Virus record (IMG/VR): IMGVR_UViG_3300008735_001623
Span: 1 to 47,429 of that record
DNA from: a virus
Strand: one strand, 5' to 3'
Length of the DNA: 47,429 bases
Numbering within the stretch: the stretch's first letter is position 1; every line of letters starts with the position of its first letter. Position numbers and translations under genes: made by a program. Under the pieces are notes generated by a model that was given only the letters and a program-made list of their open reading frames with translations, had not been told where the DNA came from and ran no database searches. Shown one piece after another: positions 4,583 through 43,523 of the stretch.

Positions 4583-5308
4583 ATGACAAACTCAATCAGA
4601 CTTTTCGAAGTTGGTGGCTCCATTCGTGATGAACTAATGGGCATCACCGAAATTCCTGACCGCGACTTCTGTGCTGAAGCACCCTCCTGGCCTGCTCTTC
4701 TTGAGTGGTGCCGCTCTAGTATGGAGCGAGTGTTTCTTGTTACTCCTGAATTTTTTACCGTCCGTGGGCGTATGCCGAACGGTGATTCGATTGACGTGGT
4801 CATGTGTCGTAAGGACGGTTCAAGTTCTGACGGTCGTCATCCTGATACTGTCGAAGCTGGTACTCTTCTTGACGACTTGGCTCGTAGAGACTTCACGGTC
4901 AATGCTATGGCTCGTGAGGTGGACCCCGCAACTCTTGAACCGATTGGTGAGATCATCGACCCGTTCAGCGGTCGTATCCATCTGGAGAAGGGATTGCTTC
5001 GTTGCGTCGGAACAGCGGCGCTAAGGCTTGAGGAAGACGGTCTTCGAGTCTTGAGAGCTGTTCGGTTCTCTATCACCAAGGAACTCACACCCTGCGAAGA
5101 GCTTGGTTTCGAACTCAAGTCTGGTCATTGGTGGACTTTCGCTGGTGAGACTGTCAGCAACGAACGCATCCGTGAAGAACTTACGAAGATGTTCAAGCAC
5201 GATACTCTTCGAACCATGATTCGGTTTGTTGAGCATCTTCCTGGCGAGGCTCTTATGCTGCTCGAAACAGCTGGCATCTGGCTTAAGCCGACGGTGGAAA
5301 AAAAGTAA
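4583..5308 (+). CDS. tRNA nucleotidyltransferase (CCA-adding enzyme) / poly(A) polymerase family
   Basis: The class II nucleotidyltransferase signature is complete. GGSIRDELMG (residues 11-20) is followed by the metal-binding DRD (26-28), a further Asp in SIDVVM (about 71), RRDFTVNAMA (101-110), and the nucleotide-selecting EEDGLRVLRAVRF (about 150-162). In this family these build the 3' CCA end of tRNA or add short tails to RNA. At 241 residues it lacks the long C-terminal body and tail domains of bacterial enzymes, so it is a minimal version. A GGGGGG ribosome site precedes ATG 4583. It lies directly after the structured RNA locus. Its codons are visibly richer in G and C than those of its neighbours, suggesting separate acquisition. 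Confidence 0.85.
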   Translation: MTNSIRLFEVGGSIRDELMGITEIPDRDFCAEAPSWPALLEWCRSSMERVFLVTPEFFTVRGRMPNGDSIDVVMCRKDGSSSDGRHPDTVEAGTLLDDLARRDFTVNAMAREVDPATLEPIGEIIDPFSGRIHLEKGLLRCVGTAALRLEEDGLRVLRAVRFSITKELTPCEELGFELKSGHWWTFAGETVSNERIREELTKMFKHDTLRTMIRFVEHLPGEALMLLETAGIWLKPTVEKK

Positions 5309-13029: not shown

Positions 13030-13824
13030 ATGACTACTTCAAACGTGATCACTCTATTCGACATGGACGGTACACTGACTCCGCCTAGAAAGACAATAGA
13101 CAATAATGTGATAAGGGCCCTTAGTCGGCTTTCAAAAATAACCAGAATTGGAATCATTACCGGTTCTGACTTTGAATATATTCTAGAACAATGTAATGCT
13201 ATGTTTGATGTGGGTGGCGTTTCAATGAGTGATATTGATCTACTGCCATGTAACGGAACCAAATTAGCGAAATGGGAAAAGTCAAAGTGGACCATGGTTC
13301 ATGAAGTAGATATGATCGAGAAGATAGGCAAAAATACTTACAAGAATATTCTTATGAAAATATTCGAGTGGCAAGCAGAAATAACTCGATTCTATCCAGA
13401 CCTCCCCTTTAGCGGAACATTCTTTCAGTACAGGGGCTCTCTTTTAAATTGGTGTCCGATTGGCAGGACAGCAGATACACAGCAGAGAGACGAATGGAAA
13501 AAATGGGATGAGGGCTATTGCATCCGCTCCAATTATATGGACGAGTTACAAAAGTATATCGCTAAGGAAAAACTTCCCATCACCGTCGCACTGGGTGGCT
13601 CAACAAGTTTTGATATTTACCCAGCTGGATGGAACAAAACTTACGGTCTTCAGCACTACGATGGATGGGATGTGTTATTCGTGGGAGATAAATGCCAGCC
13701 CGGTGGTAATGACTGGCACCTTTATTCTGCATTATCAGATGCAGATAGAGCGTGGGAAACCGATGGACCAGAAACTACAATCAGCATAATCAATAGAATC
13801 ATAGAAAAGCTTTCTAGCGCTTGA
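13030..13824 (+). CDS. Phosphomannomutase, eukaryotic (HAD/PMM) type
   Basis: Length (264 aa) and motifs fit the alpha-PMM1/PMM2 family of HAD enzymes rather than the bacterial ManB/AlgC type. LFDMDGTLTPPRK (about residues 9-21) has the catalytic Asp 11 and 13. It is followed by ITGSDFEYI, FQYRGSLLNWCPIGR, GGSTSFDIYPAGWNKTY and FVGDKCQPGGNDWHLY. The reaction is mannose-6-phosphate to mannose-1-phosphate, feeding GDP-mannose. With the PMI-like cupin at 15993 and the glycosyltransferase operon it implies phage control of mannose-based sugar supply. Confidence 0.85.
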   Translation: MTTSNVITLFDMDGTLTPPRKTIDNNVIRALSRLSKITRIGIITGSDFEYILEQCNAMFDVGGVSMSDIDLLPCNGTKLAKWEKSKWTMVHEVDMIEKIGKNTYKNILMKIFEWQAEITRFYPDLPFSGTFFQYRGSLLNWCPIGRTADTQQRDEWKKWDEGYCIRSNYMDELQKYIAKEKLPITVALGGSTSFDIYPAGWNKTYGLQHYDGWDVLFVGDKCQPGGNDWHLYSALSDADRAWETDGPETTISIINRIIEKLSSA

Positions 13825-16758: not shown

Positions 16759-17919
16759 ATGTCAATATTCAAAAGACATAAGACGATAGCAGATCGATCG
16801 GCTAATGATCGATCGAGGCATCGCAAGAAAATTGAGAAAGCTATCAAAGAGGGGATCCATAATATCGTTGCAGAAGAGTCCATTATCGGAAAAGGTGGAA
16901 AGAAGAAATTTCGAATTCCTGTTAGGGGGATTAAAGAATATCGCTTTGTATATGGAGACAATGGGTCTAAAAGAGTGGGGTCAGCCCAAGGAAAAGATGT
17001 CCAGCGTGGACAAGTTATTGGTGAGAAAGAGCGCCGGCGTGATCAAGCTGGTGGAAAGCCAGGACAAGAAAAGGGCGAAGAATTTTATGAAGTAGAACTA
17101 ACTCTAGAGCAACTGTCTGAATACCTCTTCAAGGATTTAGAGCTTCCAAATTTTGAAAAGAAAAGAAATGCAAAAGTTGTTTCGAAAAAAATAAAGAGAA
17201 AAGGCTACAGAACAAAGGGTATCCGACCAAGGCTTGATAAGAAAAAGACAGTCATGCAGAAGATCAAGCGAAGAAAGAAGGCCGAGTACTCGGGCACTAG
17301 AGGAGAAGATGAAGACTTTTCATTTCATGACAGAGATCTACGATATCGTCATTATAAGGTTTCAAAAAAGCTGTCCTCAAATGCTGCGATTTTCTTTTTG
17401 ATGGATATCTCTGGATCAATGACAAAAGAAAAGAAGTTTCTTGCAAGGAGTTTTTTCTTTTTGCTTTATCACTTTATTCGCTCTAAATATGACAAGGTGG
17501 AACTAGTATTTATATCACATGATGTAGAAGCGTATGAAGTGACAGAAGAACAATTCTTCGGACGTGGTTCATCAGGTGGAACTCTAGTTTCTTCTGCTGT
17601 TAAAATGACAGATGACATTATTGATATTCGATATCATCCGTCTAACTGGAATACATATGTTTTTCAATGTTCTGATGGTGACAACTGGCCAGGTGACAAT
17701 GATGCTGTACGAGGTTTGCTTTCTACGCTAATGCCGAAAGTACAATTCTTTGGGTACTGTGAAATATCTCCTAACAGTGAACGTCTAAAGTGGATAAATG
17801 ACACATCGCTTGGGAAGCTTTACGAGACAATGACGAGTGATAAATTTAAATCTGTAGGGATATATTCAAAAAATGATATCTGGGTGGCGTTTAATAATTT
17901 TTTTAAGGGAGAATATTAG
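16759..17919 (+). CDS. YeaH/DUF444-family vWA protein
   Basis: At 386 residues it is slightly shorter than E. coli YeaH (about 427). The N-terminal half is basic and Lys/Arg-rich, as in the family. The vWA core starts near residue 210 with FFLMDISGSMTKEKKF, giving the DxSxS metal site. SHDVEAYEVTEEQFFGRGSS, GGTLVSSAVKM and QCSDGDNWPGDN follow, as in YeaH. In bacteria YeaH acts with the kinase PrkA/YeaG in starvation and stationary-phase adaptation. Here it is the first gene of YeaH-SpoVR-PrkA, with no gap to the next gene. Confidence 0.9.
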   Translation: MSIFKRHKTIADRSANDRSRHRKKIEKAIKEGIHNIVAEESIIGKGGKKKFRIPVRGIKEYRFVYGDNGSKRVGSAQGKDVQRGQVIGEKERRRDQAGGKPGQEKGEEFYEVELTLEQLSEYLFKDLELPNFEKKRNAKVVSKKIKRKGYRTKGIRPRLDKKKTVMQKIKRRKKAEYSGTRGEDEDFSFHDRDLRYRHYKVSKKLSSNAAIFFLMDISGSMTKEKKFLARSFFFLLYHFIRSKYDKVELVFISHDVEAYEVTEEQFFGRGSSGGTLVSSAVKMTDDIIDIRYHPSNWNTYVFQCSDGDNWPGDNDAVRGLLSTLMPKVQFFGYCEISPNSERLKWINDTSLGKLYETMTSDKFKSVGIYSKNDIWVAFNNFFKGEY

Positions 17920-19224
17920 ATGTCTTTATTAAAAGAATTAGAGAAGTGGGACGAGACCTTAGAGAAGATGGCTCTTGATCATGGCTTGGATTGGTTTCCT
18001 ATCCTGTATGAGACATGTGATTATTATGAAATGATTGGTACAATGGCATATCATGGAATGCCCTCTCATTACGGACATTGGAGCTACGGCAAAAGCTTTG
18101 AACGGACGCATGCCATGTATAATGCCGGCCTAGAAGGCTTACCTTATGAATTGATCATCAATAGTGATCCATCTTTAGCTTATTTGATGGAAGAAAATCC
18201 ACTCTATCTTCAAATCTTAATAATGGCTCACTGTATCGGACATTCAGACTTTTTCAAGAATAACGCAACGTTCAAAAAAACCAGGCCAGACCAAGTTATC
18301 TTAAGAATGCGCAATGCAAAAAGATACATCGATCAGCTCGTAGAAGATCCAAGCGTTGGTGTAGAGCGAGTTGAAGAAGTTTTGGATGCGGTTCATGCGT
18401 TATCTTTGCACGTGCCCAGAAGGCACAAGAAATATGTTTCTCAAAAAGAGCAACGCAAAGAGCTTATTCAAGAAATTAAGGGTGGATTTTTCAAAGATGA
18501 AAAAACATCTCCGAACCCCGACAGATATCCCATAAGTAGAGAAGAAAATCTTATCGCATTTATTGCAGAAATGGCGCAAGGATTAGAAGAGTGGGAAAGA
18601 GAATTAATGTTGATTGCTTTGGATGATGCTCAATATTTCATGCCACAGATTAGAACGAAGATAATGAACGAAGGATGGGCGTCATACTGGCACTACAGAT
18701 TGATGCATGAATTAGAATTAGATTCAGGCATGCACTTGCCATTCCTAAAAATGCATAATGAAGTTGTTCGTCCCCACCTTGGTTCGATCAATCCTTATCA
18801 TTTAGGGTTTCATATGTTTCAGAAAATTGAAGAGAGGTTTGGACTTGAGGAATGCTTTATCGCAAGAGAGTCATTAAATGATGAATCATTTTTAAGACAA
18901 TACCTCACCGAAAAGGATTGCGAAGAATTGAACCTATTTAGTTTCTCTTTACACAAGAATGAGTACATGATAGATGATGTGTCAGATACACAAGGATGGA
19001 AAAACGTGAAAGAAGACCTAATCAAACAAGTTGGCGGGAATAATATACCCGTAATAACAGTGGCTGGTATTGAAGAAGGAAATATTTTGTGTCTACAGCA
19101 TGAACACGATGGTAGGGATTTAGACTTAGATTACGGAGATGCAGTGGTCCGACATATTACTCGTTTGTGGGGTGATATTGTTAAATTGGATACGATAATC
19201 GAAGATGAACCCTTCGAGATTTAG
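17920..19224 (+). CDS. spoVR: SpoVR/YcgB-family protein
   Basis: At 434 residues it is close to the family length (about 470-510). It contains the family hallmarks GLDWFPILYETCDYYEMIG, MPSHYGHWSYGK, and HCIGHSDFFKNN near residues 108-119, plus MNEGWASYWHYRLMHEL near 250. SpoVR affects Bacillus spore cortex formation, and YcgB is a stress- and stationary-phase protein in E. coli; the biochemical activity is unknown. It begins immediately after the YeaH stop, so they are surely co-expressed. Confidence 0.9.
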   Translation: MSLLKELEKWDETLEKMALDHGLDWFPILYETCDYYEMIGTMAYHGMPSHYGHWSYGKSFERTHAMYNAGLEGLPYELIINSDPSLAYLMEENPLYLQILIMAHCIGHSDFFKNNATFKKTRPDQVILRMRNAKRYIDQLVEDPSVGVERVEEVLDAVHALSLHVPRRHKKYVSQKEQRKELIQEIKGGFFKDEKTSPNPDRYPISREENLIAFIAEMAQGLEEWERELMLIALDDAQYFMPQIRTKIMNEGWASYWHYRLMHELELDSGMHLPFLKMHNEVVRPHLGSINPYHLGFHMFQKIEERFGLEECFIARESLNDESFLRQYLTEKDCEELNLFSFSLHKNEYMIDDVSDTQGWKNVKEDLIKQVGGNNIPVITVAGIEEGNILCLQHEHDGRDLDLDYGDAVVRHITRLWGDIVKLDTIIEDEPFEI

Positions 19225-19238
19225 TTCGGGAGAAGCTT

Positions 19239-21167
19239 ATGTCAAAAAACAAATATCTAGATATTATTAAGGCTCAACGGGCTTCTAATAAGAAAGAAAA
19301 ATTTAGAGGGACTTTTCTCGAGTACCTTTCTCTTATAGAGAAGGATCCCTCCATAACTGATCATGCACATAAAAGGCTTTATGATACAATCACTGAGCAC
19401 GGTGTGAGTAGGCTTGATGACACTGACCCTAGAAAACACAAGCTATTTGATGGAGAGAACATAAAGACTTATGAGTATTTTCAAAGTCAATTTTATGGGA
19501 TGGAAAAAGTAATAGCTAAAATAATGAGGTATCTTCGCTCGGCTGGACTTAAGGGTGAAGAGAGTCGTCAGGTATTACTTTTGATGGGCCCGGTTGGCGC
19601 TGGAAAATCTGCTCTCACAGAGCATATAAAGAGCTGTCTGGATGGCCATACATACTACCACTTAGAAAGTGATCCTCAGTGCGGTGAGCCGCTTCAATTA
19701 ATTCCGCGGTCTTTGAGACCAAAGATGAAAGAGATGTTAGGCGTGCATATTGAAGGAGACATATCTCCCGTTGCAAGACACCTCTTGTTTGAAGAATACG
19801 GTGGGGAATATGAAAAGTTTATTGTAAAAGAAACTACATTTTCCCAGCGAGCAAGAAGGGGTGTTGCATCAGTACCACCAATGGATGCAAATAGCCAAGA
19901 CGTTTCTGTCCTTATCGGTTCAGAAGACATTTCCAAGTTAGACAAATATTCTGAAGATGATCCCAGAGCGCTTAGTCTTAATGGAGCATTCAACGTGGGT
20001 AATCGTGGGATTGTAGAGCTTGTGGAGGTCTTTAAGAATGAAATTGAGTTTCTCCACACAATCATCACCGCGACACAGGAGAAGAGAGTTCCGTCCCCCG
20101 GAAAGCATGATATGATCCATTTCGATGGTGTGATCTTAGCGCACTGTAATGAGGCGGAATGGAATCGGTTCCAGAGTGAGCACACTAACGAAGCTATTTT
20201 AGATAGGATTGTTAAGATCGATGTACCGTATGTTCTGGAACTAGAACAGGAAATTCGGATTTACGAAAAAATTCTTGGTCAAGCCAATTTTGATATTCAT
20301 ATCGCTCCCCATACTCTACGCGTTGCGTCGATGTTTTCGATTCTCAGTCGATTGCATGAAAGTCAAAAATGTGATCTCTTAACAAAGCTAAAAATCTATA
20401 ATGGCGAAGAAGTTGTAGAAAAGGGTCGAGTCAAGAAAATAGACATTACTGACTTGAAAGACGAATCAGACAGAGAGGGAATGACTGGAATTTCTACAAG
20501 ATTCATAATGAAAGCAATTGATAACGCATTAAGTGATTCTGATCGTGATTTTATCACCCCTGTTTCCATGCTAGACTCCTTGATGAAGCAAGTGAAAGAA
20601 CAACTGATAAACAAAGATTTCGCAGAGCGTTGTCTTGAATTGATTCGAAATACGGTCAGGAATGAATATCTTAGATTGCTTGAAAATGAAATCGCAAAAG
20701 CATTTATTACTGCGTATGAAGAACAAGCACAATCCATTTTTGAAAACTATCTTGATAATGCCGAAGCCTTTACAACAAAGTGTAAACTAAAAGATCGAGT
20801 AACAAAAGAAGATATGCATCCTGATGAAGACTTTATGAGATCTATCGAAGGTGCTATTGGAGTGAGCTCATCGGGCAAAGAGGGGTTCCGAGCAGATGTG
20901 ACTGCTTACATGTTCGCTAAAATGAGAAGGGGCGAAGTTGTTGATTATACATCTTATGAGCCGCTTAAGGAAGCGATCGAAACATACCTAATCAGCTCAG
21001 TAAAAGATCTGGCTAGAATCGTTACAAAGTCTAAGACTAGAGATGATGAACAGAAGCATAAATACTCAAGCATGGTGCAAACCTTGATAGACGAATATGG
21101 TTACACAGCTGAATCAGCAGAAGAAGTCTTGGTGTACGCTAGTAACAATCTCTGGAGAGATAGCTGA
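19239..21167 (+). CDS. prkA: PrkA/YeaG-family serine protein kinase (AAA+)
   Basis: At 642 residues it is essentially full length (E. coli YeaG is about 644). Walker A is GPVGAGKSALTEH (about residues 117-129). Regions recognisable in the family include QFYGMEKVIAKIMRYLRSA before it, and FDGVILAHCNEAEWNRF followed by ILDRIVKIDVPYVL. The C-terminal third resembles the region related to kinases. PrkA is an AAA+ protein reported to have Ser/Thr kinase or protease activity and, in enterics, to act in nitrogen starvation with YeaH. Start ATG 19239 follows GGGAG and lies 14 bases after SpoVR. Confidence 0.9.
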   Translation: MSKNKYLDIIKAQRASNKKEKFRGTFLEYLSLIEKDPSITDHAHKRLYDTITEHGVSRLDDTDPRKHKLFDGENIKTYEYFQSQFYGMEKVIAKIMRYLRSAGLKGEESRQVLLLMGPVGAGKSALTEHIKSCLDGHTYYHLESDPQCGEPLQLIPRSLRPKMKEMLGVHIEGDISPVARHLLFEEYGGEYEKFIVKETTFSQRARRGVASVPPMDANSQDVSVLIGSEDISKLDKYSEDDPRALSLNGAFNVGNRGIVELVEVFKNEIEFLHTIITATQEKRVPSPGKHDMIHFDGVILAHCNEAEWNRFQSEHTNEAILDRIVKIDVPYVLELEQEIRIYEKILGQANFDIHIAPHTLRVASMFSILSRLHESQKCDLLTKLKIYNGEEVVEKGRVKKIDITDLKDESDREGMTGISTRFIMKAIDNALSDSDRDFITPVSMLDSLMKQVKEQLINKDFAERCLELIRNTVRNEYLRLLENEIAKAFITAYEEQAQSIFENYLDNAEAFTTKCKLKDRVTKEDMHPDEDFMRSIEGAIGVSSSGKEGFRADVTAYMFAKMRRGEVVDYTSYEPLKEAIETYLISSVKDLARIVTKSKTRDDEQKHKYSSMVQTLIDEYGYTAESAEEVLVYASNNLWRDS

Positions 21168-21168
21168 T

Positions 21169-21615
21169 GTGTTTAGATTGCCCCCAGATCAAAAATCTTA
21201 TTTCTATAAAAACATTGAAATAAGAGAATCTTCTGTGCATGGCTTGGGTGTTTTTGCGACACAAGACATTCCAATACACACATGCTTTGAAATTTCACCC
21301 GTTGTTATTTTTGACAGAAGCCTTATGCAGGACTGGCTAGATATGTACGATGAGCGGCATATTCTAAACGAGTACTTGTTCCAATCGTACGACAAACAGC
21401 ATGCAGTCGTGCTTGGTTTTGGAAGCATCTATAACCATTCAGCGTTCCCAAATGCATTTTACAGATGGCGAGAATGTGAAAAATTTCCAGCAATGGAATT
21501 TTGGTCTAAAAGAGCGATCGTAAAAAACGAAGAAATATTCGTGAAATATACACATTATTCTGATACATTACAATTCATGGATGAGAAAGAATCCAAGTAT
21601 CTTGGGCTTGAATAA
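21169..21615 (+). CDS. SET-domain protein (putative lysine methyltransferase, 148 aa)
   Basis: GTG 21169 is used, one base after the PrkA stop, with GGAGAG at 21153-21158; the ATG at 21166 is out of frame. SVHGLGVFATQDIP (about residues 22-35) is the first SET motif (G-x-G-x-F). GFGSIYNHSAFPNAFY supplies the N-H-S knot element, and EEIFVKYTHY the catalytic-Tyr region. Minimal viral SET proteins of similar size occur in chlorella viruses. Substrates here are unknown; adjacency to PrkA and a chaperonin-like gene suggests a host protein target, by inference. Confidence 0.75.
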   Translation: MFRLPPDQKSYFYKNIEIRESSVHGLGVFATQDIPIHTCFEISPVVIFDRSLMQDWLDMYDERHILNEYLFQSYDKQHAVVLGFGSIYNHSAFPNAFYRWRECEKFPAMEFWSKRAIVKNEEIFVKYTHYSDTLQFMDEKESKYLGLE

Positions 21616-21907: not shown

Positions 21908-23230
21908 ATGTCTGTGCACAATCAGGTTATACGTGGAGATGAGCTCGATAAATGTAAGTCGATCTTAAAAAAAGATATCTCTCTATTGATCGAAGACATC
22001 AACAGTCTTTCATCTTCTGTTCTAATGACAGACCGGCTCCATACTATAGGATGGAGTGATTCTTTTCGTGGGCTTCTTGTTGGGTTGAATAACTGCGAAA
22101 CAGCATACAAGAACTTAATCTTGAATAGCGCGTATCATCTAAATGAAACATGCGCCCTGGCAATTCCTGTATATTTGCTTACACTTCAAAAGATTCTTTC
22201 CTCGTCAATCACAAATGAAAGAGCTCTTGCCTTAATAAAAGCACCAACTCGGCCTCGGCGAGTCAAGTCAATCGATATCATTAAGGAATGGGAACGAAGC
22301 ATTCATGATGAAGTTACACTTTCCTATAAGAATGTTTTTATCGATGCTGTACGAACAGCTGGTTCACTTGGTTCCGTTGTCATTGAGCAGACAACAGGAA
22401 ATACAATCACTGAACTCGAGTCGGGCTGCCAATTTCAATGTAGTCTACATTCCTTTTTTCAAGAATCTTTTGATGACTACGTAGAATTAAGAGAGTGTAT
22501 AGTTGTTGTGATCGATGGTGCCATCATCGATGTCAGCGAAATACATCATTTGTTAACATATGCTTACGAAAATAAGACGCCGGTGGTGGTCTTCGCGAGT
22601 AATTACTCAGACGATGTTGCAAACACTCTGATTGTGAATTGGGAAAAGGGGTTAGTGAAAGTCCTCCCATTCATCATGGATAAAAGTCTAGATAATGTTA
22701 ACCAAGTAAAAGATTTGTGCACTATTGCTGGTATTACACCGGTGTCTAAAGAGTCAGGGATACTCATAAGCACTCTAGATTTTGATACAATCCCGTCAAA
22801 TACCGCAAAATATTCTGTCAAGAAACAAACTTGCTCAATTCAAACAAGCAAGAATAATTTTGATTCGATCAAGTATCTACGTCAAGATATTCAGAAAAAG
22901 CTGACTAAAGAAAAAGTAGATGATGTAAGAGATGTATTGAAAAAACGATTATCGCGATTATCAACACGGACAGTAAAAACTAAAATTCATTGCTCCAAAA
23001 CAGAGGAGGGAATTCTTCAAGATAGAGCCGCATGTCTGGTCCAGCTTCTAGCATGTTCGGGGAGAGAAGGTATTATCGATATTCAGCCGATTTATGATAT
23101 GCTGAACTACACTCCTTCGAATTTTATGCCGACAATATTACCACATCAAATTACGCTTAATGCAATGCGAAGAGCTGTAGCTGATGCGAAAGCCATAAGT
23201 AATATTAGCGTCATTATCAAGCTGGATTAG
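21908..23230 (+). CDS. Divergent GroEL-like chaperonin with degenerate ATP site (440 aa)
   Basis: The order of GroEL segments is recognisable. Residues 150-300 match the apical domain: GSVVIEQTTGNTITELESG, then IVVVIDGAIIDVSEIHHLL, TPVVVFASNYSDDVANTLIV and EKGLVKVLPF. Residues 315-385 match the intermediate/equatorial return, with Asp372 (LQDRAACLV) at the position of catalytic GroEL Asp398. Residues 412-440 match the final equatorial helix and strand. The protein is about 100 residues shorter than GroEL. Where GDGTTTAT should be, it has NETCALAI (about 79-86), so normal ATP binding is doubtful. It may be a specialised phage folding factor or a subunit that mixes with another ring. Confidence 0.7.
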   Translation: MSVHNQVIRGDELDKCKSILKKDISLLIEDINSLSSSVLMTDRLHTIGWSDSFRGLLVGLNNCETAYKNLILNSAYHLNETCALAIPVYLLTLQKILSSSITNERALALIKAPTRPRRVKSIDIIKEWERSIHDEVTLSYKNVFIDAVRTAGSLGSVVIEQTTGNTITELESGCQFQCSLHSFFQESFDDYVELRECIVVVIDGAIIDVSEIHHLLTYAYENKTPVVVFASNYSDDVANTLIVNWEKGLVKVLPFIMDKSLDNVNQVKDLCTIAGITPVSKESGILISTLDFDTIPSNTAKYSVKKQTCSIQTSKNNFDSIKYLRQDIQKKLTKEKVDDVRDVLKKRLSRLSTRTVKTKIHCSKTEEGILQDRAACLVQLLACSGREGIIDIQPIYDMLNYTPSNFMPTILPHQITLNAMRRAVADAKAISNISVIIKLD

Positions 23231-23231
23231 A

Positions 23232-23708
23232 ATGGTAAAATGGAGCACATCGAAGATACAGTGGCATAATGCTGATTCTAAGCCGGCATCATTTAATGAT
23301 ATTATTGAAAAAATAAATAGTAATAATGCATACCAAATTCATGTAGGGTGTGATTCTCACAAGCGAGGGGATACATATGTTTTCGCCGTTGTAATTGCTG
23401 GGTATGTTAACCGCAAGGGTGGCACTTTTTATTTCCACAGAAAAAGAAGCAAGGATTGCGCTTTAGATTCTATGAAATTTCGTCTTATGAAAGAAGCAGA
23501 ATTAGCAATAGAAGCTGCACGATCTTTAAGAGAAGCATTTCCGATTAAGATTATAAATGTTCATCTAGATCTAAACCCTAACAAGAAATATCCGTCATCT
23601 AAAATTTTAACATCTGCGATTTCTTGGGTAAACTCTTATGGGTTTACACCGATTGTGAAGCCAAATTCATGGGCTTCTTCATCTTTAGCTGACGCATATG
23701 CTAAATAA
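23232..23708 (+). CDS. DUF458 RNase H-like protein (158 aa)
   Basis: QIHVGCDSHKRGDTYVFAVV (about residues 35-54) holds the first acidic residue. RLMKEAELAIEAAR gives the conserved Glu, and VHLDLNPNKKYPSS plus KPNSWASSSLADAYAK complete the DUF458 (YkuK-type) pattern with its Asp residues. The family is predicted to adopt an RNase H-like fold; activity is not firmly known. Start ATG 23232 is one base after the preceding stop. Confidence 0.75.
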   Translation: MVKWSTSKIQWHNADSKPASFNDIIEKINSNNAYQIHVGCDSHKRGDTYVFAVVIAGYVNRKGGTFYFHRKRSKDCALDSMKFRLMKEAELAIEAARSLREAFPIKIINVHLDLNPNKKYPSSKILTSAISWVNSYGFTPIVKPNSWASSSLADAYAK

Positions 23709-23999: not shown

Positions 24000-24461
24000 A
24001 TGCAAGGGTTAAAGCACTTGATAAAGTGTCGGTGCATTTTACCCACGCTAAAGAATAGGACCGACCCACCGCTACATCAATTTATAGTATTTTCGATTGT
24101 AGAAAAAGATGTAGTGCTTGAAAAAATTGTGAATTGTAATAACTGCGGTATAGCACACCGGATAACCGACATCTGCAAATCTGTTATTATGGAAAGTGTA
24201 GAATCAGCAAAGTCAGTAATGACGATAGATGATGTGGCAGTTATGTTGCCAGAGTCAGTTTCAACAATTTTACAAACATATGAAAAAGATTTACCAGATT
24301 ATGAACAGGCACATTTCATATTACAATATGAGAGACGAGGGGATTTTATAGTGCTTTCCTCAGAGATAGCTGAAGAGAAGAAGTTGGGTAAAGTATTGAC
24401 ATATCAAGGGGACGGGAAATTCAAGATCGAACCTTACTCGATAGATGAGATATTAAAATGA
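24000..24461 (+). CDS. Conserved-looking phage protein with zinc-type cysteines (153 aa)
   Basis: The N-terminal CRC (residues 10-12) and CNNCG (about 46-50) could bind zinc together with nearby His. HQFIVFSIVEKDVVLEKIVN is a beta-rich core. The C-terminal half has a helix-rich region and ends in an acidic GDGKFKIEPYSIDEILK. I have an impression of similar proteins in marine phage genomes but cannot name a family. Its stop overlaps the next ATG. Confidence 0.6.
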   Translation: MQGLKHLIKCRCILPTLKNRTDPPLHQFIVFSIVEKDVVLEKIVNCNNCGIAHRITDICKSVIMESVESAKSVMTIDDVAVMLPESVSTILQTYEKDLPDYEQAHFILQYERRGDFIVLSSEIAEEKKLGKVLTYQGDGKFKIEPYSIDEILK

Positions 24462-24712
24462 CAGAAGAGAAGAAAGAAGAAAAGCTAGAACGAGAAGACA
24501 CAGACTGGCTGCTTGACATTAAGAAATCGCGAGATATATGTCAGGAAATTTTAAGGTTTGGGGTTTCCCAAACACAAATTAGGAATATAATCAATTTGCT
24601 TGCACTCGAGCTAGAAGATAGGGAGATGATGCTGGCAATCAACAGGGCTGTAAAACAAGAAGAGGATGAAGAACGCCCGAAGATTCTTCATCCAGGAGAA
24701 AACGATGAGTGA
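24458..24712 (+). CDS. Acidic helical hypothetical protein (84 aa)
   Basis: Start ATG 24458 overlaps the upstream stop. It is charged at both ends (EEKKEEKLEREDTD, EDEERPKILHPGENDE) with a central helical part, ICQEILRFGVSQTQIRNIIN, that might be a small helix-turn-helix. Function is unknown. It overlaps the Hc1-like start. Confidence 0.55.
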   Translation: MTEEKKEEKLEREDTDWLLDIKKSRDICQEILRFGVSQTQIRNIINLLALELEDREMMLAINRAVKQEEDEERPKILHPGENDE

Positions 24713-36566: not shown

Positions 36567-36759
36567 CCAGTAATTCAATTAATTAATTAATTAGAAAATT
36601 TACTAAAGAAAACAGATATACTGGATTACTGGGAAGCTGAATTCAGAATTAATATACAGCAGCTGTAAAATTTGTACACCAAAAAAAGTTGAAAAAATCT
36701 GATTTTTCTATCTTTACAGTCAATCAAGAGGGCTTATTATTCATCAGCAGGAGTGTTTG
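36567..36759 (+). promoter_or_regulatory. Palindrome-rich control region before the glycosyltransferase operon
   Basis: The 193 bases hold no gene. CCAGTAAT (36567-36574) and ATTACTGG (36625-36632) are perfect 8-bp complements around an AT-rich loop with TTAA repeats. CTGAATTCAG (36637-36646) is a palindrome, and ACAGC-A-GCTGT (36656-36666) is another. A weak hairpin GAAAAA/TTTTTC follows at 36691-36708. No confident -35/-10 pair is seen. Confidence 0.45.
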
Positions 36760-38712
36760 ATGTTTACTAGTCCCTTTGAGACTCCGCAGATACCGGTTGT
36801 AGATCCGGATGCGGATATTATTTTTGTTGCAGATTTCTTTATAGAAGATTATGCAGGTGGTGCAGAAATGACCACTGAAGCTTTGATACAATCAGCAACA
36901 GATCTGAAAGTTCAGAAGCTTCACTCTCATCACATAGCTATGAACCATCTTAAGGGTGGTATGGACAAGCATTGGGTTTTTGGAAATATTGCTGGATTAA
37001 AACCCGATTTGATTGCCAGCATTATTGGTAACCTCTCTTATTCTATACTTGAATACGATTATAAGTTTTGTCAGTATCGATCGATAGAGAAGCATGAACA
37101 TGAGACCGGTTCTCCTTGCGATTGTTCCGAGCAGTTACATGGAAAAATGATATCAGCTTTCTTTCATGGCTCAAAATCGATTTGGTGGATGAGCGAAGAG
37201 CAAGAAAAAAGATACCTGGAAAGATTTCCGTTTCTAGCAGATAATGCAAGATGCGTGCTAAGTAGCGTATTCGGTGAAAATTTCTTTCGCATGGTCGGTG
37301 CATTAGCTGAAGTTGCTAGAGAGAACCCACCAGAGCGCAAGGGCTGGATCGTCTTGGGTTCGGATTCTTGGATTAAGGGTGCTGAGGATGCCATAGCTTA
37401 TTGTGAAAAAAATAATTTAGAACATGAAGTCGTCTGGGGTATACCACATGATCAGTTACTAGCGAAGCTAGCCGTATCAGAAGGGTTTGTTTATCTGCCT
37501 CGAGGGGGAGATACATGCCCGAGGATGGTGATTGAAGCCAGAGCAGTTGGGTGTGATATTGTTCTTAATGAAAATGTACAGCATAAGAATGAAGAGTGGT
37601 TTACTGGTGATGAGCTAGATATGATGTCATATCTTTATGCAGCTCGTGAACGGTTTTGGACTGCCATAAAATCAGTCGCAAGTTATGTTCCATCGCTCAG
37701 TGGCTACACGACAGTAAGAAATGCGATTGATATGAAATACCCCTGGATGGCAACTGTGCAATCTATGTTAGGCTTCTGTCATGAGGTTGTCGTTGTAGAT
37801 GGCGGTTCTACAGACGGTACCTGGGAAAAATTACAAACATGGGCAGAAGAAGAAGAGAGATTAAAGATCGAGCAGATTTCTGTTGATGAGGCTAGCCCAA
37901 GCTTTGCATATGAATCAGACGGTATGCTAAAGGCTGCTGCAAGAGATTTGTGCACATCAGAATATTGTTGGCAGATGGATGCAGATGAAGTGGTTCATGA
38001 ACATGATTATGCGAAGGTTCATAATCTCTTAAGAGGGTTCCCACGCTATACAAATCTAGTGTCACTTCCCGTGATTGAGTATTGGGGGTCCACGGAGAAG
38101 GTGAGGATGGATATAAATCCCTGGAAGTGGAGATTGAGTAGGAATCTTCCGCATATAACTCAGGGCATACCCGCAGCGCTTCGTAATGTTGATGATGAAG
38201 GGTATGAATACGCGTCGATGGGAACAGATAGCTGTGATTATATCGATAGAGAGTCTGGTGAATTAATTCCTCATGCTGGATTTTATGATGAACAAATTCA
38301 TAATATCAGACTAGCAGGTCTGGGTGGTAATGAAGAAGCTCGAAAGACTTATGAAACATGGTTTAATAATGTAATTGATTCTCTCCCAGGTGTGCATCAC
38401 TATTCGTGGTATAACATCGCGAATAAAATAGGTCAGTATAAATTACATTGGGGTAAGTTTTGGAAGAGTATGTATCGTTTTGATACAGAAGACACAGCTG
38501 AAAATAACGTCATGTTTGATAAACCATGGGTTGATGTAACAGATGACGATGTCGATAAGATGTCGACAAAACTAGCCACAGAATTAGGCGGGTGGATTTT
38601 TCATAACAAGGTTGATTTTACGCAAAAAGTCCCCCATATTTCTGTACAACGAGAGCATCCTTCTACATTTATAGCATACGAGAAAAGTCTGCAAAAATTA
38701 AATGAGGAATAA
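36760..38712 (+). CDS. Two-domain glycosyltransferase (GT-B-like + GT2, 650 aa)
   Basis: ATG 36760 has AGGAG six bases upstream; a TTG at 36757 is too close to it. The N-terminal half has a GT-B C-lobe pattern: WIVLGSDSWIKGAEDAI, then AVSEGFVYLPRGGDTCPRMV and IEARAVGCDIVLNE, the E-A nucleotide-sugar region. From about residue 315 a GT2 domain follows: EVVVVDGGSTDGTWEKL and WQMDADEVVHEHD (the D-x-D metal site). The two catalytic modules in one chain probably add consecutive sugars. Confidence 0.75.
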   Translation: MFTSPFETPQIPVVDPDADIIFVADFFIEDYAGGAEMTTEALIQSATDLKVQKLHSHHIAMNHLKGGMDKHWVFGNIAGLKPDLIASIIGNLSYSILEYDYKFCQYRSIEKHEHETGSPCDCSEQLHGKMISAFFHGSKSIWWMSEEQEKRYLERFPFLADNARCVLSSVFGENFFRMVGALAEVARENPPERKGWIVLGSDSWIKGAEDAIAYCEKNNLEHEVVWGIPHDQLLAKLAVSEGFVYLPRGGDTCPRMVIEARAVGCDIVLNENVQHKNEEWFTGDELDMMSYLYAARERFWTAIKSVASYVPSLSGYTTVRNAIDMKYPWMATVQSMLGFCHEVVVVDGGSTDGTWEKLQTWAEEEERLKIEQISVDEASPSFAYESDGMLKAAARDLCTSEYCWQMDADEVVHEHDYAKVHNLLRGFPRYTNLVSLPVIEYWGSTEKVRMDINPWKWRLSRNLPHITQGIPAALRNVDDEGYEYASMGTDSCDYIDRESGELIPHAGFYDEQIHNIRLAGLGGNEEARKTYETWFNNVIDSLPGVHHYSWYNIANKIGQYKLHWGKFWKSMYRFDTEDTAENNVMFDKPWVDVTDDDVDKMSTKLATELGGWIFHNKVDFTQKVPHISVQREHPSTFIAYEKSLQKLNEE

Positions 38713-38714
38713 AA

Positions 38715-39497
38715 ATGCCCAAAGTCTCCATTATTCTTCCGGTTCATAACGGAGAGAAAAAAATATCGCGTGCGTTGACGTCGCTAGCGAAGCAAACATA
38801 TCGAGACTTTGAAACAGTATTAGTAGACAATAATTGCACTGACTTGACCGTTGAGGTTGCAATGCAATTCAAGGATTCTGTGAATCTAAGAGTTGTGAAA
38901 TGTGAAGTGCAGGGATTGGTCGCTGCTTTAAATTTTGGTATTGCAAATTCGGATAGCGAATTTATAGCTCGTCAAGATGATGATGATTATTGGTACCCGG
39001 ATAAGCTAGAAAAGCAGATGAAGTATTTTGAAGAAAATCCAGATGTTGATGTATTGGGTACTCAAATTAGGTTGTTGGATACCGATGGAAGAGTTGAAGA
39101 ACTTGGTACTTTTGGATCAGCAGTAACGTACGCTGTACATGATCAAGCAATGAAGATGGCTTTGTTAATCGGCCAAAATCCGATATGTCATCCTTCAGTC
39201 GTTTTCAAAAGAGCTGTTATTCTGAAAGTTGGTGGGTACGTCGATATTTGGCATCTAACAGAAGATCTTGAATTGTGGTGTAGAATGATTCCATTTGCAA
39301 AATTTGCGAATATAGATGAAGTGCTGATTGACTATACTCAGACGATACGGGATGACTATGATCCGAATCTAGCTATCTTGATTTCAGATATGTACTATCA
39401 TCTTTATAAGGTGCTAGGGTATGTTAAGGGTGAAAGACCTCCGGTACTTGCAGAGTGGCAAGTCGATCAGATGATGGAGAAGAATAATGACAAATAA
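38715..39497 (+). CDS. Family 2 glycosyltransferase (260 aa)
   Basis: A typical GT2 GT-A fold: VSIILPVHNGEKKISRALTS, ETVLVDNNCTDLTVEVA, the acidic cluster IARQDDDDYWYPDKLEKQ (nucleotide-sugar/metal site, about residues 88-105), then NPICHPSVVFKRAV and TEDLELWCRM, where E-D is the likely general base. Donor and acceptor are unknown. It starts three bases after the preceding gene and overlaps the next one. Confidence 0.85.
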   Translation: MPKVSIILPVHNGEKKISRALTSLAKQTYRDFETVLVDNNCTDLTVEVAMQFKDSVNLRVVKCEVQGLVAALNFGIANSDSEFIARQDDDDYWYPDKLEKQMKYFEENPDVDVLGTQIRLLDTDGRVEELGTFGSAVTYAVHDQAMKMALLIGQNPICHPSVVFKRAVILKVGGYVDIWHLTEDLELWCRMIPFAKFANIDEVLIDYTQTIRDDYDPNLAILISDMYYHLYKVLGYVKGERPPVLAEWQVDQMMEKNNDK

Positions 39498-40395
39498 AGA
39501 TTTCAAAAAGGTTATCATATGGGGGTTACCCCTCCATTCTCATACGCACAGTTATATTCATGATTGTTTTTTTAAGGCTTTTACGTCTATGGGCTACGAT
39601 ACCGTGTGGGTTGATAAGACACAAGAGAAAATTGATAATTCATTTTTAGATAATTCTCTGGTGATTGTTTGTGGTGTTGATTGTCAAACATTAAGCGTAA
39701 ATGAAAACTGTTTTTACGTTCTTCATAATGTTGATGATTACCGCTTTAGGCAAGGTGATAATTTCATGAATCTGCAAGTTTATACTAAGGATACGTTACT
39801 ACCAGAAAGAAAAGCTCAAAAGTTATCAACATTCACGTATTGGCAAGAGAGCGAGAAATGCCTGTATCAACCCTGGGCAACCGATTTGTTACCAGAAGAA
39901 ATGATTTATGATCCAGTTCCTGCACCAGAAGTTAACAGAGTTGTTAATTGGGTGGGATCGATTACAGATGGTGAGCAAGGGAATTTTCGACAAGTCCAAG
40001 AATACGCACAACAGCTTGCTGTAAGCTATAATATTCCTGTTCACGCTCATAGGGGTGTCGATAGAGATGGAATGATTAAGCTAGTTCGTGGATCAAATCA
40101 AGCTCCAGCGATTGTTGCGGGATGGCAAAAAGAGAACATGTACGTTCCATGTAGATTATTCAAGAATATCTCGTACGGTCAACCGACATTCTCTAACAGT
40201 CCTGTTGTTGAGGAGCTTTGTGGTTCAGAATATTTTGAAGAAGACTGTGCAAAGTTGGCGATAAAGAATCATGAGTATCTTCAAAACAGGGATTTTGAAA
40301 AAGAAAATGAGCTTTTACAATTTATAAAGAAAGAGCACACGTATGTCAATAGGTGCAATCGTATTTTAGAGCTCGCTGGAGGAATAAGGAAGTGA
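39487..40395 (+). CDS. Putative glycosyltransferase, GT-B-like (302 aa)
   Basis: Start ATG 39487 overlaps the preceding gene by 11 bases. VIIWGLPLHSHTHSYIHDCF opens a Rossmann-like lobe. CLYQPWATDLLPEEMIYDP is a linker seen in GT4-like enzymes, and RLFKNISYGQPTFSNSPVVE corresponds to the nucleotide-sugar region of the second lobe. The family cannot be fixed. Context in a run of glycosyltransferases supports the role. Confidence 0.6.
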   Translation: MTNKDFKKVIIWGLPLHSHTHSYIHDCFFKAFTSMGYDTVWVDKTQEKIDNSFLDNSLVIVCGVDCQTLSVNENCFYVLHNVDDYRFRQGDNFMNLQVYTKDTLLPERKAQKLSTFTYWQESEKCLYQPWATDLLPEEMIYDPVPAPEVNRVVNWVGSITDGEQGNFRQVQEYAQQLAVSYNIPVHAHRGVDRDGMIKLVRGSNQAPAIVAGWQKENMYVPCRLFKNISYGQPTFSNSPVVEELCGSEYFEEDCAKLAIKNHEYLQNRDFEKENELLQFIKKEHTYVNRCNRILELAGGIRK

Positions 40396-41210
40396 GTGGA
40401 TCTGAATCGACTGTCAACATTTGCATTTTTTCTAGAAATCGACCATTACAGCTTCAAGCTTTGTTACGGTCTGTGAAGTCATTTGTGCACCCGCATGGAG
40501 ATATCACTATTCTTCATCGTTATGATGAAGAGTATAACCCTGCGCTAGCCGAGGTGAAAGAGCAATTTCAGGAATGTAAGTTTATAGAAGATGATAATTT
40601 CAAGCATCAAGTTTGTTCATTCTTGGAGGCCTCGGCGAATAATTGCTTTTTCTTGGTAGACGACATTGTATTTCGGCGACCTGTTGACATGCATCTTTGT
40701 GATAGCATTCTTGAAAGTAATCCTGACGTTTTAACGATATCATTACGTCTCGGTCTTCATCTGAATCATTGTTATCCAGTCAGCTCCTGGCAGAAAATTC
40801 CAGATGGGCAGGTTCAGCAAGGATTTTTCTTATGGCCTTGGCGAGCGGGCATGCACGATTGGGGATATCCCTTTTCGGTAGATGGTCACATCTTTCGAGC
40901 AAAGCAAATACTGAATTATATCAGACACTTAGAGTTTACAACCCCGAATTCTTTTGAGGCAGAGATGCAAAAGATTCCGCATTATTTCGCGGTGCCGAAT
41001 CTTACTATCTGTAATGTAGAGTCTTGTTTATTCAACAATCCGTTAAATCGCGTACAGGATGCATTTCAAAATAGGAGCGGGAATGTTACAACTGAAGAAT
41101 TATTGGCTAAGTGGAATGAAGGTCTAGAGATTGATATTGATAAATTGGCTAGACTAATTCCGAATGGTGCTCATTTCGTTGCAGAACTTCCCTTTAGAGA
41201 ACGAAAATGA
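40392..41210 (+). CDS. Glycosyltransferase-like protein (272 aa)
   Basis: GTG 40392 overlaps the preceding stop (GTGA) and has GGAGG at 40378-40382. STVNICIFSRNRPLQLQALL followed by RSVKSFV is the first strand/helix of a GT-A fold, and NNCFFLVDDIVFRRPVDMHL carries a D-D motif at the metal position. RAGMHDWGYPFSVDGHIFRA supplies a D-G-H region. It looks like a GT2-like phage enzyme of unknown specificity. Confidence 0.65.
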   Translation: MSGSESTVNICIFSRNRPLQLQALLRSVKSFVHPHGDITILHRYDEEYNPALAEVKEQFQECKFIEDDNFKHQVCSFLEASANNCFFLVDDIVFRRPVDMHLCDSILESNPDVLTISLRLGLHLNHCYPVSSWQKIPDGQVQQGFFLWPWRAGMHDWGYPFSVDGHIFRAKQILNYIRHLEFTTPNSFEAEMQKIPHYFAVPNLTICNVESCLFNNPLNRVQDAFQNRSGNVTTEELLAKWNEGLEIDIDKLARLIPNGAHFVAELPFRERK

Positions 41211-41962
41211 AAGATTACCACATAGGAATATTGACGATTGCGACTGGGAAATATATAAAATTTCTTCCCAATCTTTACGCTTCCATCAACAAGAATTTTT
41301 TAGTTGAGAATAAAATTACATGTTATCTATTCACTGATGATATCGAAGCCGCGAAAGCTTTGGTCCCTTCCACTAGATTATCTCATCAATATTTCCATAT
41401 TGAGAGACAAGGATTCCCGGGAGATACGCTTTATAGGTACAAGCATTTTTCTACTTTAGACGATCGACTTACAGAAAAGCCTGACTTCTTATTTTACTCG
41501 GACGCTGATATGCTCGTCGTTTCCGATGTGGGACCAGAGGTGATTCCAGAAGAGAGAGTTGGGCTAACGGCAACAGCTCATCCAGGATTTTATTTATACC
41601 GAACACCACAGCACCCATTAGGTACCCCAGAAGATCGTCCAGAATCAAAAGCGTATGTTGATCCAAGTCGCTATCGTCCCTATTACGTCGCTGGTGGATT
41701 CAACGGCGGCGCATATGAAGCATTTGTAAAGATGTCAAAAGAGATATCAGCCAACATCGATGATGATTATTCTCGTGGAATTATTGCAGTGTGGCATGAT
41801 GAATCTCATCTTAATGAATATGTCACTCGTCCAGAGAACCTACAGAATCTTAAGATAATGACACCGTCATATTGCTTCGCAGAATATAACAACCCTCGTG
41901 AAGTCGGGTATCCTGCTAGAATCGTTGCGCTAGACAAAAATCATGATGAGGTTCGTTCATGA
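41207..41962 (+). CDS. Family 6 glycosyltransferase (ABO/alpha-1,3-galactosyltransferase type)
   Basis: Matches vertebrate GT6 at all key sites. FYSDADM (residues 97-102) is a D-x-D manganese site; HPGFY (125-129) and YYVAGGFNGGAYEAF (159-173) line the donor site; AVWHDESHLNEY (194-205) includes the catalytic Glu199; and a final ALDKNHDEVRS corresponds to PKNHQAVR. The 251-residue soluble length equals the catalytic domain without the eukaryotic stem and anchor. Bacterial GT6 enzymes often have N-x-N instead; this one keeps D-x-D. The expected reaction is transfer of Gal or GalNAc in alpha-1,3 linkage. Confidence 0.92.
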   Translation: MKDYHIGILTIATGKYIKFLPNLYASINKNFLVENKITCYLFTDDIEAAKALVPSTRLSHQYFHIERQGFPGDTLYRYKHFSTLDDRLTEKPDFLFYSDADMLVVSDVGPEVIPEERVGLTATAHPGFYLYRTPQHPLGTPEDRPESKAYVDPSRYRPYYVAGGFNGGAYEAFVKMSKEISANIDDDYSRGIIAVWHDESHLNEYVTRPENLQNLKIMTPSYCFAEYNNPREVGYPARIVALDKNHDEVRS

Positions 41963-42696
41963 ATAATCTGGTAAGTGTAATAATCCCATACAGGAATGCA
42001 GAGAAGTATATTTTTCAAACATTGGAAGCGGTGCTAGCACAGACTTATAGCAATTTTGAGTTATTGTGTGTAGACAATGGTTCTTCAGATGACAGTACTT
42101 CTGTAGTTAGAGATTTTGCAAATAACGATGATAGAATTTGTGAATTAGAATTTCCCCATGCTGGAAAAAGTCTTGCTTTAAATTACGGTCTCTCCCGGGC
42201 GACGGGAGCATGGATCGCAATTTGTGATGCTGATGATACGTGGGATTCAGAGAAATTAGAAAAGCAAGCTCTGTTCATGGATCGATTTCCGGAATATGAT
42301 GTTATCGGTACTCAGATGAGATATGTTAATGATGCTGGTGCGCAATTCAAAGAAGCGCCATTTCTACCCTTACATCATGATGGAATTTGTGAGTCGATTT
42401 TTAAGCGTAAAGAAAATCCTGTATGTAACAGCAGCGTAATGTATAAAAAATCTCTACATGATGTGCACGTTGGATTTTATGATCCTCTCTGTGCAGTAGA
42501 GGATTATGACCTCTGGTCAAGATGCGCTTTTGCTGGACTTAAGTTCGCTAATTTAGAGGATGTATTAGTTTCTCATCGATTGCACGATAATTCAAATTTT
42601 AATAGCTCAAGAAAACAATCATATCACAAGCAGCTTGTAGATGCGAAGATAGACGCTTATAATTCTATTGAAGAAGCGTTGGCGGAGAAAGAATGA
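41959..42696 (+). CDS. Family 2 glycosyltransferase (245 aa)
   Basis: VSVIIPYRNAEKYIFQTLEA, then ELLCVDNGSSDDSTSVV and AICDADDTWDSEKLEKQ, where D-A-D is the metal-binding motif (about residues 88-90), then NPVCNSSVMYKKS and VEDYDLWSRC with the base Glu-Asp. It is a canonical bacterial GT2. Start ATG 41959 overlaps the GT6 stop, and its end overlaps the SIS gene. Specificity is not readable. Confidence 0.88.
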   Translation: MNNLVSVIIPYRNAEKYIFQTLEAVLAQTYSNFELLCVDNGSSDDSTSVVRDFANNDDRICELEFPHAGKSLALNYGLSRATGAWIAICDADDTWDSEKLEKQALFMDRFPEYDVIGTQMRYVNDAGAQFKEAPFLPLHHDGICESIFKRKENPVCNSSVMYKKSLHDVHVGFYDPLCAVEDYDLWSRCAFAGLKFANLEDVLVSHRLHDNSNFNSSRKQSYHKQLVDAKIDAYNSIEEALAEKE

Positions 42697-43193
42697 ATTT
42701 AAGCGAAGTCGTTCAAGCAATCAATGAGATAGATCCAAGCGATGTTGCTGAGTTAAAGTCGTTGGTTGGAAAATACACTGACATTATTATGATTGGAAAT
42801 GGCGGGAGTAATGCAATCTGTTCTCACATTGCGCAAGACTATACAAAGATGCTCGGGAAACGCGCATTTGCATTTTCTGATGCTTCTCGTTTAACGTGTT
42901 ATATCAACGATTTTGGGATGGAGAATGCGTATGAACGATTCATTGCAGATTTTGAGACTATTGATACACTAGTCGTTTTAGTATCTTCTTCGGGGAATTC
43001 TAAGAATATCTTAAATTGCGCAAAACATTGTGTAGCAGAAAATATCCCTTTCATTATTTTAACAGGGTTTGACGATTTTAATGAGCTTAGATCGAATTAT
43101 GCTACAGCTGCAGAAATAGACATGCATGTGAATTCAAGGTCTTACGGTGTGGTTGAATGTGTTCATCAGGTTTTTCTACATACACCAGTGTGA
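42693..43193 (+). CDS. gmhA: Phosphoheptose isomerase-like SIS protein (GmhA type)
   Basis: At 166 residues it is slightly shorter than GmhA (about 190). MIGNGGSNAICSHIAQDYTK and VLVSSSGNSKNILNCAKH are the two SIS phosphosugar loops. VVECVHQVFLH near the C-terminus carries the catalytic Glu/His region of sedoheptulose-7-phosphate isomerases. The reaction would give D-glycero-D-manno-heptose-7-phosphate. With the HldE-like transferase at 15500 it supports a heptose-nucleotide pathway, though the kinase is not in the window. Confidence 0.8.
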   Translation: MNLSEVVQAINEIDPSDVAELKSLVGKYTDIIMIGNGGSNAICSHIAQDYTKMLGKRAFAFSDASRLTCYINDFGMENAYERFIADFETIDTLVVLVSSSGNSKNILNCAKHCVAENIPFIILTGFDDFNELRSNYATAAEIDMHVNSRSYGVVECVHQVFLHTPV

Positions 43194-43202
43194 GGAGTTT
43201 TT

Positions 43203-43523
43203 ATGATTTATTGTTTTGACATTGATGGTACAATTTGTACATTGGAAAAAAATAGCCAGTATAAGAATGCGAAACCTTTTGCTGGAATGATTTCTAAGAT
43301 TAACGATTTGTATGAGCAGGGCCACACGATAAAATTTTTTACTGCAAGAGGATGTAATTCTGGGATTGACCACACCGATCTGACAACGAATCAGCTAAAG
43401 GGGTGGGGTGTAAATTATCATGAATTAATCATGAACCGTAAACCCCATTATGATTTATTGATAGATGATAAAGCTGTAAACGTTGAAGATTGGATGAGAT
43501 GTATGGGGATAAGAGATGTTTAG
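43203..43523 (+). CDS. Small HAD phosphatase of polysaccharide type (106 aa)
   Basis: YCFDIDGTICTLEKNSQYKN carries the nucleophile motif D-I-D-G-T (about residues 5-9). IKFFTARGCNSG is motif II (Thr), and YDLLIDDKAVNVEDWM supplies the second Asp pair. This short capless form occurs in capsule or LPS sugar clusters (BcbF-like). The predicted role is removal of a phosphate from a sugar intermediate after the isomerase. A GAGG ribosome site precedes ATG 43203. Confidence 0.8.
   Translation: MIYCFDIDGTICTLEKNSQYKNAKPFAGMISKINDLYEQGHTIKFFTARGCNSGIDHTDLTTNQLKGWGVNYHELIMNRKPHYDLLIDDKAVNVEDWMRCMGIRDV

Follow-up and report, generated by a model that had tools for sequence, protein, structure and literature searches.

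Large marine phages carry a reduced GroEL relative that has lost the ATP site, usually in addition to a normal chaperonin of their own

An ATP-driven cycle is what defines a chaperonin, and three reports describe the phage chaperonins as ATP-driven GroEL orthologues (PMC7185714, PMC9598537, PMC5934643). The locus analyzed here raises the question of whether a group I family has departed from that definition by losing the ATP pocket and, if so, what such a protein might still do. The locus lies in a virus record of 47,429 bases, a 47-kb fragment that we refer to as the window, in which an intact open reading frame (ORF) of 440 amino acids occupies exactly positions 21908-23230 of the plus strand. 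Profile searches, alignment, and a predicted structure identify this ORF as a reduced chaperonin-like gene without a nucleotide site.

The product is a true relative of GroEL, and its fold is well supported. The window protein matched the PHROGs entry PHROG_5725, "chaperonin groEL" (E = 3.4e-11), and the top phmmer match in the PDB was a GroEL (8.6e-11, over residues 144-370). A profile of the family matched the PDB at 2.6e-38 over GroEL residues 127-410, and 60/60 of the matches listed were chaperonins. In the profile-profile alignment made with hhalign, residues 1-440 fell collinearly on GroEL 1-524 (probability 99.9, E = 3.3e-35), so that the GroEL relationship claimed in the original prediction was borne out by the profile search proposed with it. 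The apical and equatorial segments do follow the GroEL order, as had been claimed, but the equatorial segments at the two ends of the chain can be recognized by profile and fold only. A single-sequence Pfam scan gave no match of the window protein to PF00118 (Cpn60) over the cut-off, which shows the extent of drift in both outer parts. The profile alignment leaves 89 GroEL residues without a counterpart, close to the deficit of about 100 that had been estimated.

The AlphaFold2 model, calculated with a 51-row alignment of reduced proteins, has a mean pLDDT of 92.1 and a pTM of 0.79, and all three GroEL domains are present in it; the monomer prediction suggested earlier as a check thus returned a complete GroEL fold. 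With VIA-align, the model matched a Cpn60/Cpn10 complex over 424 residues (Z = 22.3, rmsd 4.4), and the apical domain alone matched 5cdj over 177 residues at 2.1 Å. By its profile relationship and its complete three-domain fold, the protein is a homologue of the group I chaperonins. Compared with the model of a co-resident canonical phage GroEL, the C-terminal equatorial part lacks three helices and a hairpin, and the N-terminal equatorial helix pair is shortened. The two models also differ in conformation, the reduced one resembling the extended, lid-bound subunit (TM of 0.71 to 4pj1 and about 0.41 to the closed one) and the canonical one a subunit in the relaxed or closed state (TM of 0.89 to 4ki8, against about 0.65 to lid-bound forms), a comparison between single-chain predictions with unequal alignment depths (51 rows for the reduced protein and 12 for the canonical one).

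All parts of the gene read on the plus strand. The N-terminal equatorial part (aa 1-114, 21908-22249, with limits taken from the hhalign mapping) has no counterparts of GroEL 36-40 and 104-119, and the AlphaFold2 model predicts in it an edge strand at aa 6-9 and a hairpin at aa 37-46. The apical, peptide-binding domain (aa 172-355, 22421-22972) is the best-conserved part and includes the helix H/I peptide groove (aa 213-247, 22544-22648). The C-terminal equatorial remnant (aa 387-440, 23066-23227) has lost GroEL 425-486 and keeps the terminal helix and edge strand.

We take the GroEL nucleotide site to consist of the GDGTT motif with D87, D52, D398, G414-416, N479-A481, and D495. GDGTT is present in 15/15 canonical reference sequences (14 from phages and 1 from Salmonella) and in 0/51 reduced members. 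D87, D52, and D495 are each found at their aligned columns in 0/51, the register of D52 being uncertain by about 3 residues, with an Asp three columns on in 33/51. The D398 column holds Asp in 1/51 members, each of G414-416 is kept in 1-2 of 51, the GGG is absent from the window protein, and GroEL 479-481 fall within its deletion. Of the pocket positions that never vary among the 15/15 canonical sequences, none is retained in more than 5/51 reduced members. In the window protein, a degenerate phosphate loop, NETCALAIPV (aa 79-88, 22142-22171), stands at the position of the GDGTT loop. The reported replacement of GDGTT by NETCA is right in that GDGTT is gone, but NETCA itself sits some three residues out of register, GroEL D87 aligning with L84. 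The reported retention of an Asp398 equivalent arose from a misalignment and is rejected on the profile register. In the helix M segment (23021-23035), profile alignments place D372, of a QDR sequence, at GroEL position 394 without gaps, where the co-resident canonical phage GroELs have the D of KDRVEDAL, and position 398, a catalytic Asp in GroEL, is C376; the register is bracketed by position 395, which is Arg in both, and by the conserved G410. With D372 at 394, there is therefore no catalytic acid that is demonstrably kept.

Loss of the ATP site in the reduced family is well supported, as is the ATP independence that had been proposed for the protein. Because the parts that touch the nucleotide in GroEL have been changed or removed, the sequences make the use of ATP by the reduced chaperonin very unlikely. 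By the state of its nucleotide site, the protein falls outside the functional group I chaperonins, and, having no intact ATP motif, it also falls outside the ATP-dependent phage chaperonins of the EL, OBP, and AR9 type.

Constraint on the remainder of the protein is unevenly distributed. Counting as invariant a residue present in at least 14/15 canonical sequences, and as kept one present in at least half of the reduced members, the reduced family keeps 8/26 canonical invariants in the apical domain, 0/36 in the N-terminal equatorial part, 1/32 in the two intermediate parts, and, at the C-terminal end of the equatorial domain, 2/21. The strongest conservation lies in and around the helix H/I groove, where N265 is kept in 51/51 members, T261 and F204 in 48/51 each, and L237 in 46/51, and position 257 (GroEL numbering) carries an acid in 50/51. 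The groove of the window protein retains L216, T240, and N244 as the equivalents of L237, T261, and N265, with H213 in place of L234. Y199, Y203, L234, and V263, four of the hydrophobic positions associated with broad substrate binding, are mostly replaced in the family (in 47/51, L234 has given way to His, Asn, or Asp), which suggests a narrower range of clients. We infer from this pattern that the groove has probably been retained for peptide binding and retuned toward fewer partners.

The contacts between GroEL rings presumably involve K105 and A109 on one part of the chain and E434, R452, E461, S463, and V464 on another. All seven fall within the deletions of the window protein (GroEL 104-119 and 425-486), and none of this set is present. 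Within a GroEL ring, neighboring subunits are joined by a sheet to which the two termini of the chain contribute strands and the intervening part a hairpin; these edge strands and the hairpin are predicted in both the reduced and the canonical phage GroEL models.

Relatives of the window protein were reached through the neighboring gene for the PrkA/YeaG kinase (19239-21167, plus strand), a marker of the phage lineage. PrkA relatives occur in 206 viral contig stretches, and among the best 80 of these 206 loci, a profile of the reduced protein found a reduced relative adjoining PrkA in 59. The 61 profile hits at the 80 loci include two canonical GroELs (L074 and L076), and 19 loci gave no hit; where PrkA had no reduced gene next to it (21 loci), the search covered the whole contig in 17, the exceptions being L062, L071, L078, and L092. 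The alignment holds 51 distinct sequences, identical copies and three members taken as cut at contig ends (L046, L069, and L079) having been left out, and 41/51 individually match the phage GroEL PHROG. The reduced members form one clade, with 100/100 support in a 49-row tree containing 13 of them, and all 56 reduced rows of a 156-row tree sit on one branch; rooting was at the midpoint, and long branches (2-4 changes per column in some rows) may inflate the clade support. L186, whose motif reads GDGAT, is a canonical phage GroEL and was excluded from the reduced set in the clade test. A subgroup of about 400 aa (L005-L008 and L015) has lost a further apical segment. In one record (G082:C1:217451-218638), the reduced chaperonin match crosses a single in-frame TAG, for which an error, an upstream start, or a recoded stop are possible explanations.

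The reduced gene is fast-evolving yet maintained, under purifying selection. Between loci L003 and L004 the reduced proteins are 76% identical, compared with 95-97% for the three YeaH-, SpoVR-, and PhoH-like neighbors, and dN/dS is 0.08, 0.13, and 0.20 in the three pairs with finite dS, dS being saturated in two further pairs. This fast evolution is what might be cited for a decaying gene without function, an explanation that we find scarcely credible because the ORF is open beside PrkA in 59/80 loci (the best 80 of 206) and dN/dS is 0.08-0.20; the confident full fold and the invariant N265 also speak against decay.

Searches for an isolate carrying the reduced gene turned up none. When two reduced proteins were compared by tblastn with 50,697 phage records, no match reached 80% coverage of the query; a family profile run on 11 selected records matched 5, over partial spans and in ORFs of 526-550 aa, among which the ATP motif was examined in the one from Aeromonas phage AhC3_1. 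That phage was considered as a possible isolate and was rejected, its chaperonin being canonical and ATP-motif-bearing. The AhC3_1 protein, ORF37 (L312 3254-4849), is annotated "hypothetical protein" and proves to be a complete chaperonin that carries the GDGTT and TKDG motifs, beside a Clp-protease-like gene.

The family is one of large marine phages, and its reduced chaperonin is usually carried in addition to a normal chaperonin of the phage's own. Among PrkA-bearing records of at least 176 kb, 9/10 contain both (G007, G020, G026, G031, G041, G050, G051, G064, and G082); three of these (G051, G064, and G082) were reached through the canonical GroEL itself, and six of the seven records reached through PrkA alone have both. 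The largest PrkA-bearing record, G048 (361 kb, locus L094), has neither a canonical GroEL nor the reduced chaperonin nor the zinc-finger-like gene described below. In a set of 40 records, 37 of them reached through canonical GroEL with L026, L097, and L018 added, the reduced gene is present in 8/8 that bear PrkA and in 0/32 that do not. A canonical GroEL passing PF00118 was found in 13/50 related contigs, and the canonical copies examined in related records keep GDGTT, TKDG, and GGG; none was seen in the 47-kb window fragment. A search for Cpn10 itself, as distinct from T4 gp31-like proteins, found it in 0/50 related contigs; hosts could supply GroES. Canonical and reduced genes are nonadjacent in the regions read, and the correlation between their distances vanishes when PrkA is controlled for (partial r = 0.06 in 9 records).

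The constant neighbor of the reduced gene is a zinc-finger-like gene of 153 aa (24000-24461, plus strand), which follows it in 57/57 testable loci, also where PrkA is nonadjacent. Testable loci are those with at least 1.2 kb downstream, 57 of 63, some near-identical ones being counted separately. The encoded proteins have conserved H/C positions of the zinc-finger type and belong to no known family, with no significant match in Pfam, PHROGs, the PDB, or phage records. The gene is present in 9/9 records with the reduced chaperonin and in 0/41 others examined; this shared presence could be explained by common descent, and the kept adjacency is the stronger hint. Mirror-tree covariation between the two proteins gave a partial r of 0.56 in 9 records and 0.04 in 29 loci; being specific in the first set and not in the second, the covariation tests are therefore treated as uninformative. 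A small conserved ORF of 84 aa (24458-24712, plus strand) overlaps the zinc-finger-like gene, and an RNaseH-like (PF04308) ORF (23232-23708, plus strand) begins one base past the stop of the chaperonin-like gene; such an ORF follows the reduced chaperonin in 29/63 loci and has relatives in Vibrio and Cronobacter phages. In two records (G050 and G031) PrkA lies elsewhere, yet the reduced gene, the zinc-finger-like gene, and PhoH remain together. The case for PrkA as a functional partner is weakened because the reduced gene keeps these genes, and not PrkA, as neighbors there. The linkage to large ORFs is nonspecific: among the 9 two-chaperonin records, 5 have relatives of the 1748-aa ORF within about 12 kb and 2 have them at a distance of 33-41 kb, with none found in the remaining 2, and a second large ORF was matched in 10/23 records. 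The suggestion that the protein might be an adaptor for huge fiber proteins therefore has no specific backing, 5/9 comparing with 57/57 for the zinc-finger-like gene.

Our preferred reading, which we hold tentatively and somewhat short of an even chance, is that the reduced protein is an ATP-independent, client-binding pseudochaperonin that probably works with the phage's own GroEL, much as BBS6 and BBS12 do with CCT, on which this division of labor is modeled. In this reading, a GroEL-derived subunit kept its three-domain fold and apical groove and gave up both the nucleotide pocket and the regions of contact between rings. Its clients, dedicated and few or even single, would bind through the reworked groove without ATP and would be delivered to, or held for, the ATP-driven GroEL of the phage; alternatively, the reduced subunit may join the phage GroEL ring through its retained edge strands. 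The first candidate for a client or partner would be the product of the invariant downstream zinc-finger-like gene. The partner and the ring state are conjectural: contact with the phage GroEL is suggested by co-residence. Against it stand the nonadjacency of the two genes, the distance correlation that vanishes with PrkA controlled for, the canonical GroEL not seen in the window fragment, and the poor conservation of the equatorial residues needed for a shared ring (0/36 N-terminal invariants).

Nearly as likely as this partnership, if doubtful in its own right, is a stand-alone scaffold or holdase, in which the protein would form a single ring or small oligomer of its own and hold a specific partner, such as the zinc-finger-like protein, without nucleotide and without GroEL. 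Such a device would fit the linkage of the two genes (57/57) and their identical presence (9/9 versus 0/41), the predicted edge strands beside the deleted ring-ring contacts, and the lack of excess covariation with canonical GroEL; single-ring phage chaperonins that work without a co-chaperonin have been described (PMC9598537). The linkage could, however, be lineage synteny, the covariation with the zinc-finger-like gene is not robust, and, because these phages almost always have a canonical GroEL as well, independence does not follow. A quite unlikely alternative is that the fold was exapted for a job other than folding, for example as a scaffold in nucleic acid or transcription control together with the RNaseH-like, zinc-finger-like, and PhoH genes that surround it. 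The loss of several hydrophobic residues of promiscuous binding would suit such a change, but few residues of the family are as well conserved as N265, T261, L237, and F204, which points to peptide binding, and no nucleic-acid-binding feature was detected. The original prediction had also proposed a dominant subunit inserted into host GroEL. A protein with an apical domain and no ATP site could insert into the rings of the host and act there as an inert subunit or a decoy, but these phages bring an intact GroEL of their own and the equatorial contact surfaces have diverged (0/36 N-terminal invariants kept); we regard interference with the host as highly improbable. With the two chaperonins co-resident in 9/10 records, a partnership with the GroEL of the phage itself is the likelier of the two. 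A more ambitious picture, and one that we consider rather unlikely as a whole, would be a two-chaperonin system in a large marine phage lineage, in which a dedicated ring, or ring subunit, of ATP-free chaperonin would work with a zinc-finger partner of its own as a nucleotide-independent binding or assembly device derived from GroEL, with no known bacterial counterpart.

Set against GroEL/Cpn60, the reduced protein shares the collinear three-domain fold, an apical domain that superposes at about 2.1 Å over 177 residues, and an invariant helix I Asn265; it differs in its length (440 aa versus about 548), in the absence of GDGTT, aligned D52 and D398, and GGG, and in the deletion of 104-119 and 425-486. 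The isolated apical domain of GroEL can act without ATP, as the mini-chaperones do. PDB apical fragments of that kind match the apical domain of the reduced protein, which, unlike them, retains all three domains, at least in the model. The chaperonins of phages EL (gp146), OBP (gp246), and AR9 (gp228) are full-length; they are described as ATP-dependent or ATPase-active and as co-chaperonin-independent (PMC7185714, PMC9598537, PMC5934643). They resemble the present family in being phage-borne GroEL relatives and in needing no GroES partner (PMC7185714, PMC9598537), Cpn10 being absent from the 50 contigs here; the reduced family has no ATP site and is additional to a canonical phage GroEL. It therefore differs from them in chemistry and shares their ancestry. 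A closer functional parallel may be BBS6/BBS12, described as chaperonin-like, without an ATP motif, and as a substrate-binding unit of CCT (PMC10356136). The reduced protein is like them in combining a chaperonin fold with the absence of an ATP motif and in coexisting with a canonical chaperonin; they are vertebrate proteins, group II/CCT relatives in eukaryotes, whereas the reduced family is a group I relative in phages, for which a complex with canonical subunits is conjectured from co-residence.

No earlier description of a phage chaperonin family lacking the ATP site was found in the literature searched; a virioplankton chaperonin survey (ISME J 2017), outside that search, may mention short variants. 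As far as we have found, a widespread family without the ATP pocket and both ring-ring regions, and with a strongly constrained groove, would be a phage counterpart of BBS6/BBS12. What a chaperonin can do without ATP can be put to a direct test using two or three small genes, since an intact paralogue shares the genome and the putative partner gene is constant.

The window and the related loci contain several other features of note. A YeaH(DUF444)-SpoVR-PrkA cluster at 16759-21167 has the bacterial arrangement, here in a phage. Between L003 and L004, dS is 0.25 for PrkA and ranges from 0.66 to saturation for the other locus genes, which suggests recent exchange of PrkA between these phages. 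Upstream of the chaperonin-like gene, the end of PrkA is overlapped by a SET-domain (methyltransferase-like) ORF (21097-21615); among the 12 loci that the SET-domain profile matched, two seem to be brief overlaps with the PrkA end. Two very large ORFs of the window, without a Pfam or PHROG match, are followed by a series of glycosyltransferase-like ORFs at 36757-44397. Positions 13030-13824 encode a eukaryotic-type phosphomannomutase (PF03332), and positions 4583-5308 encode a poly(A)/CCA polymerase head domain (PF01743).
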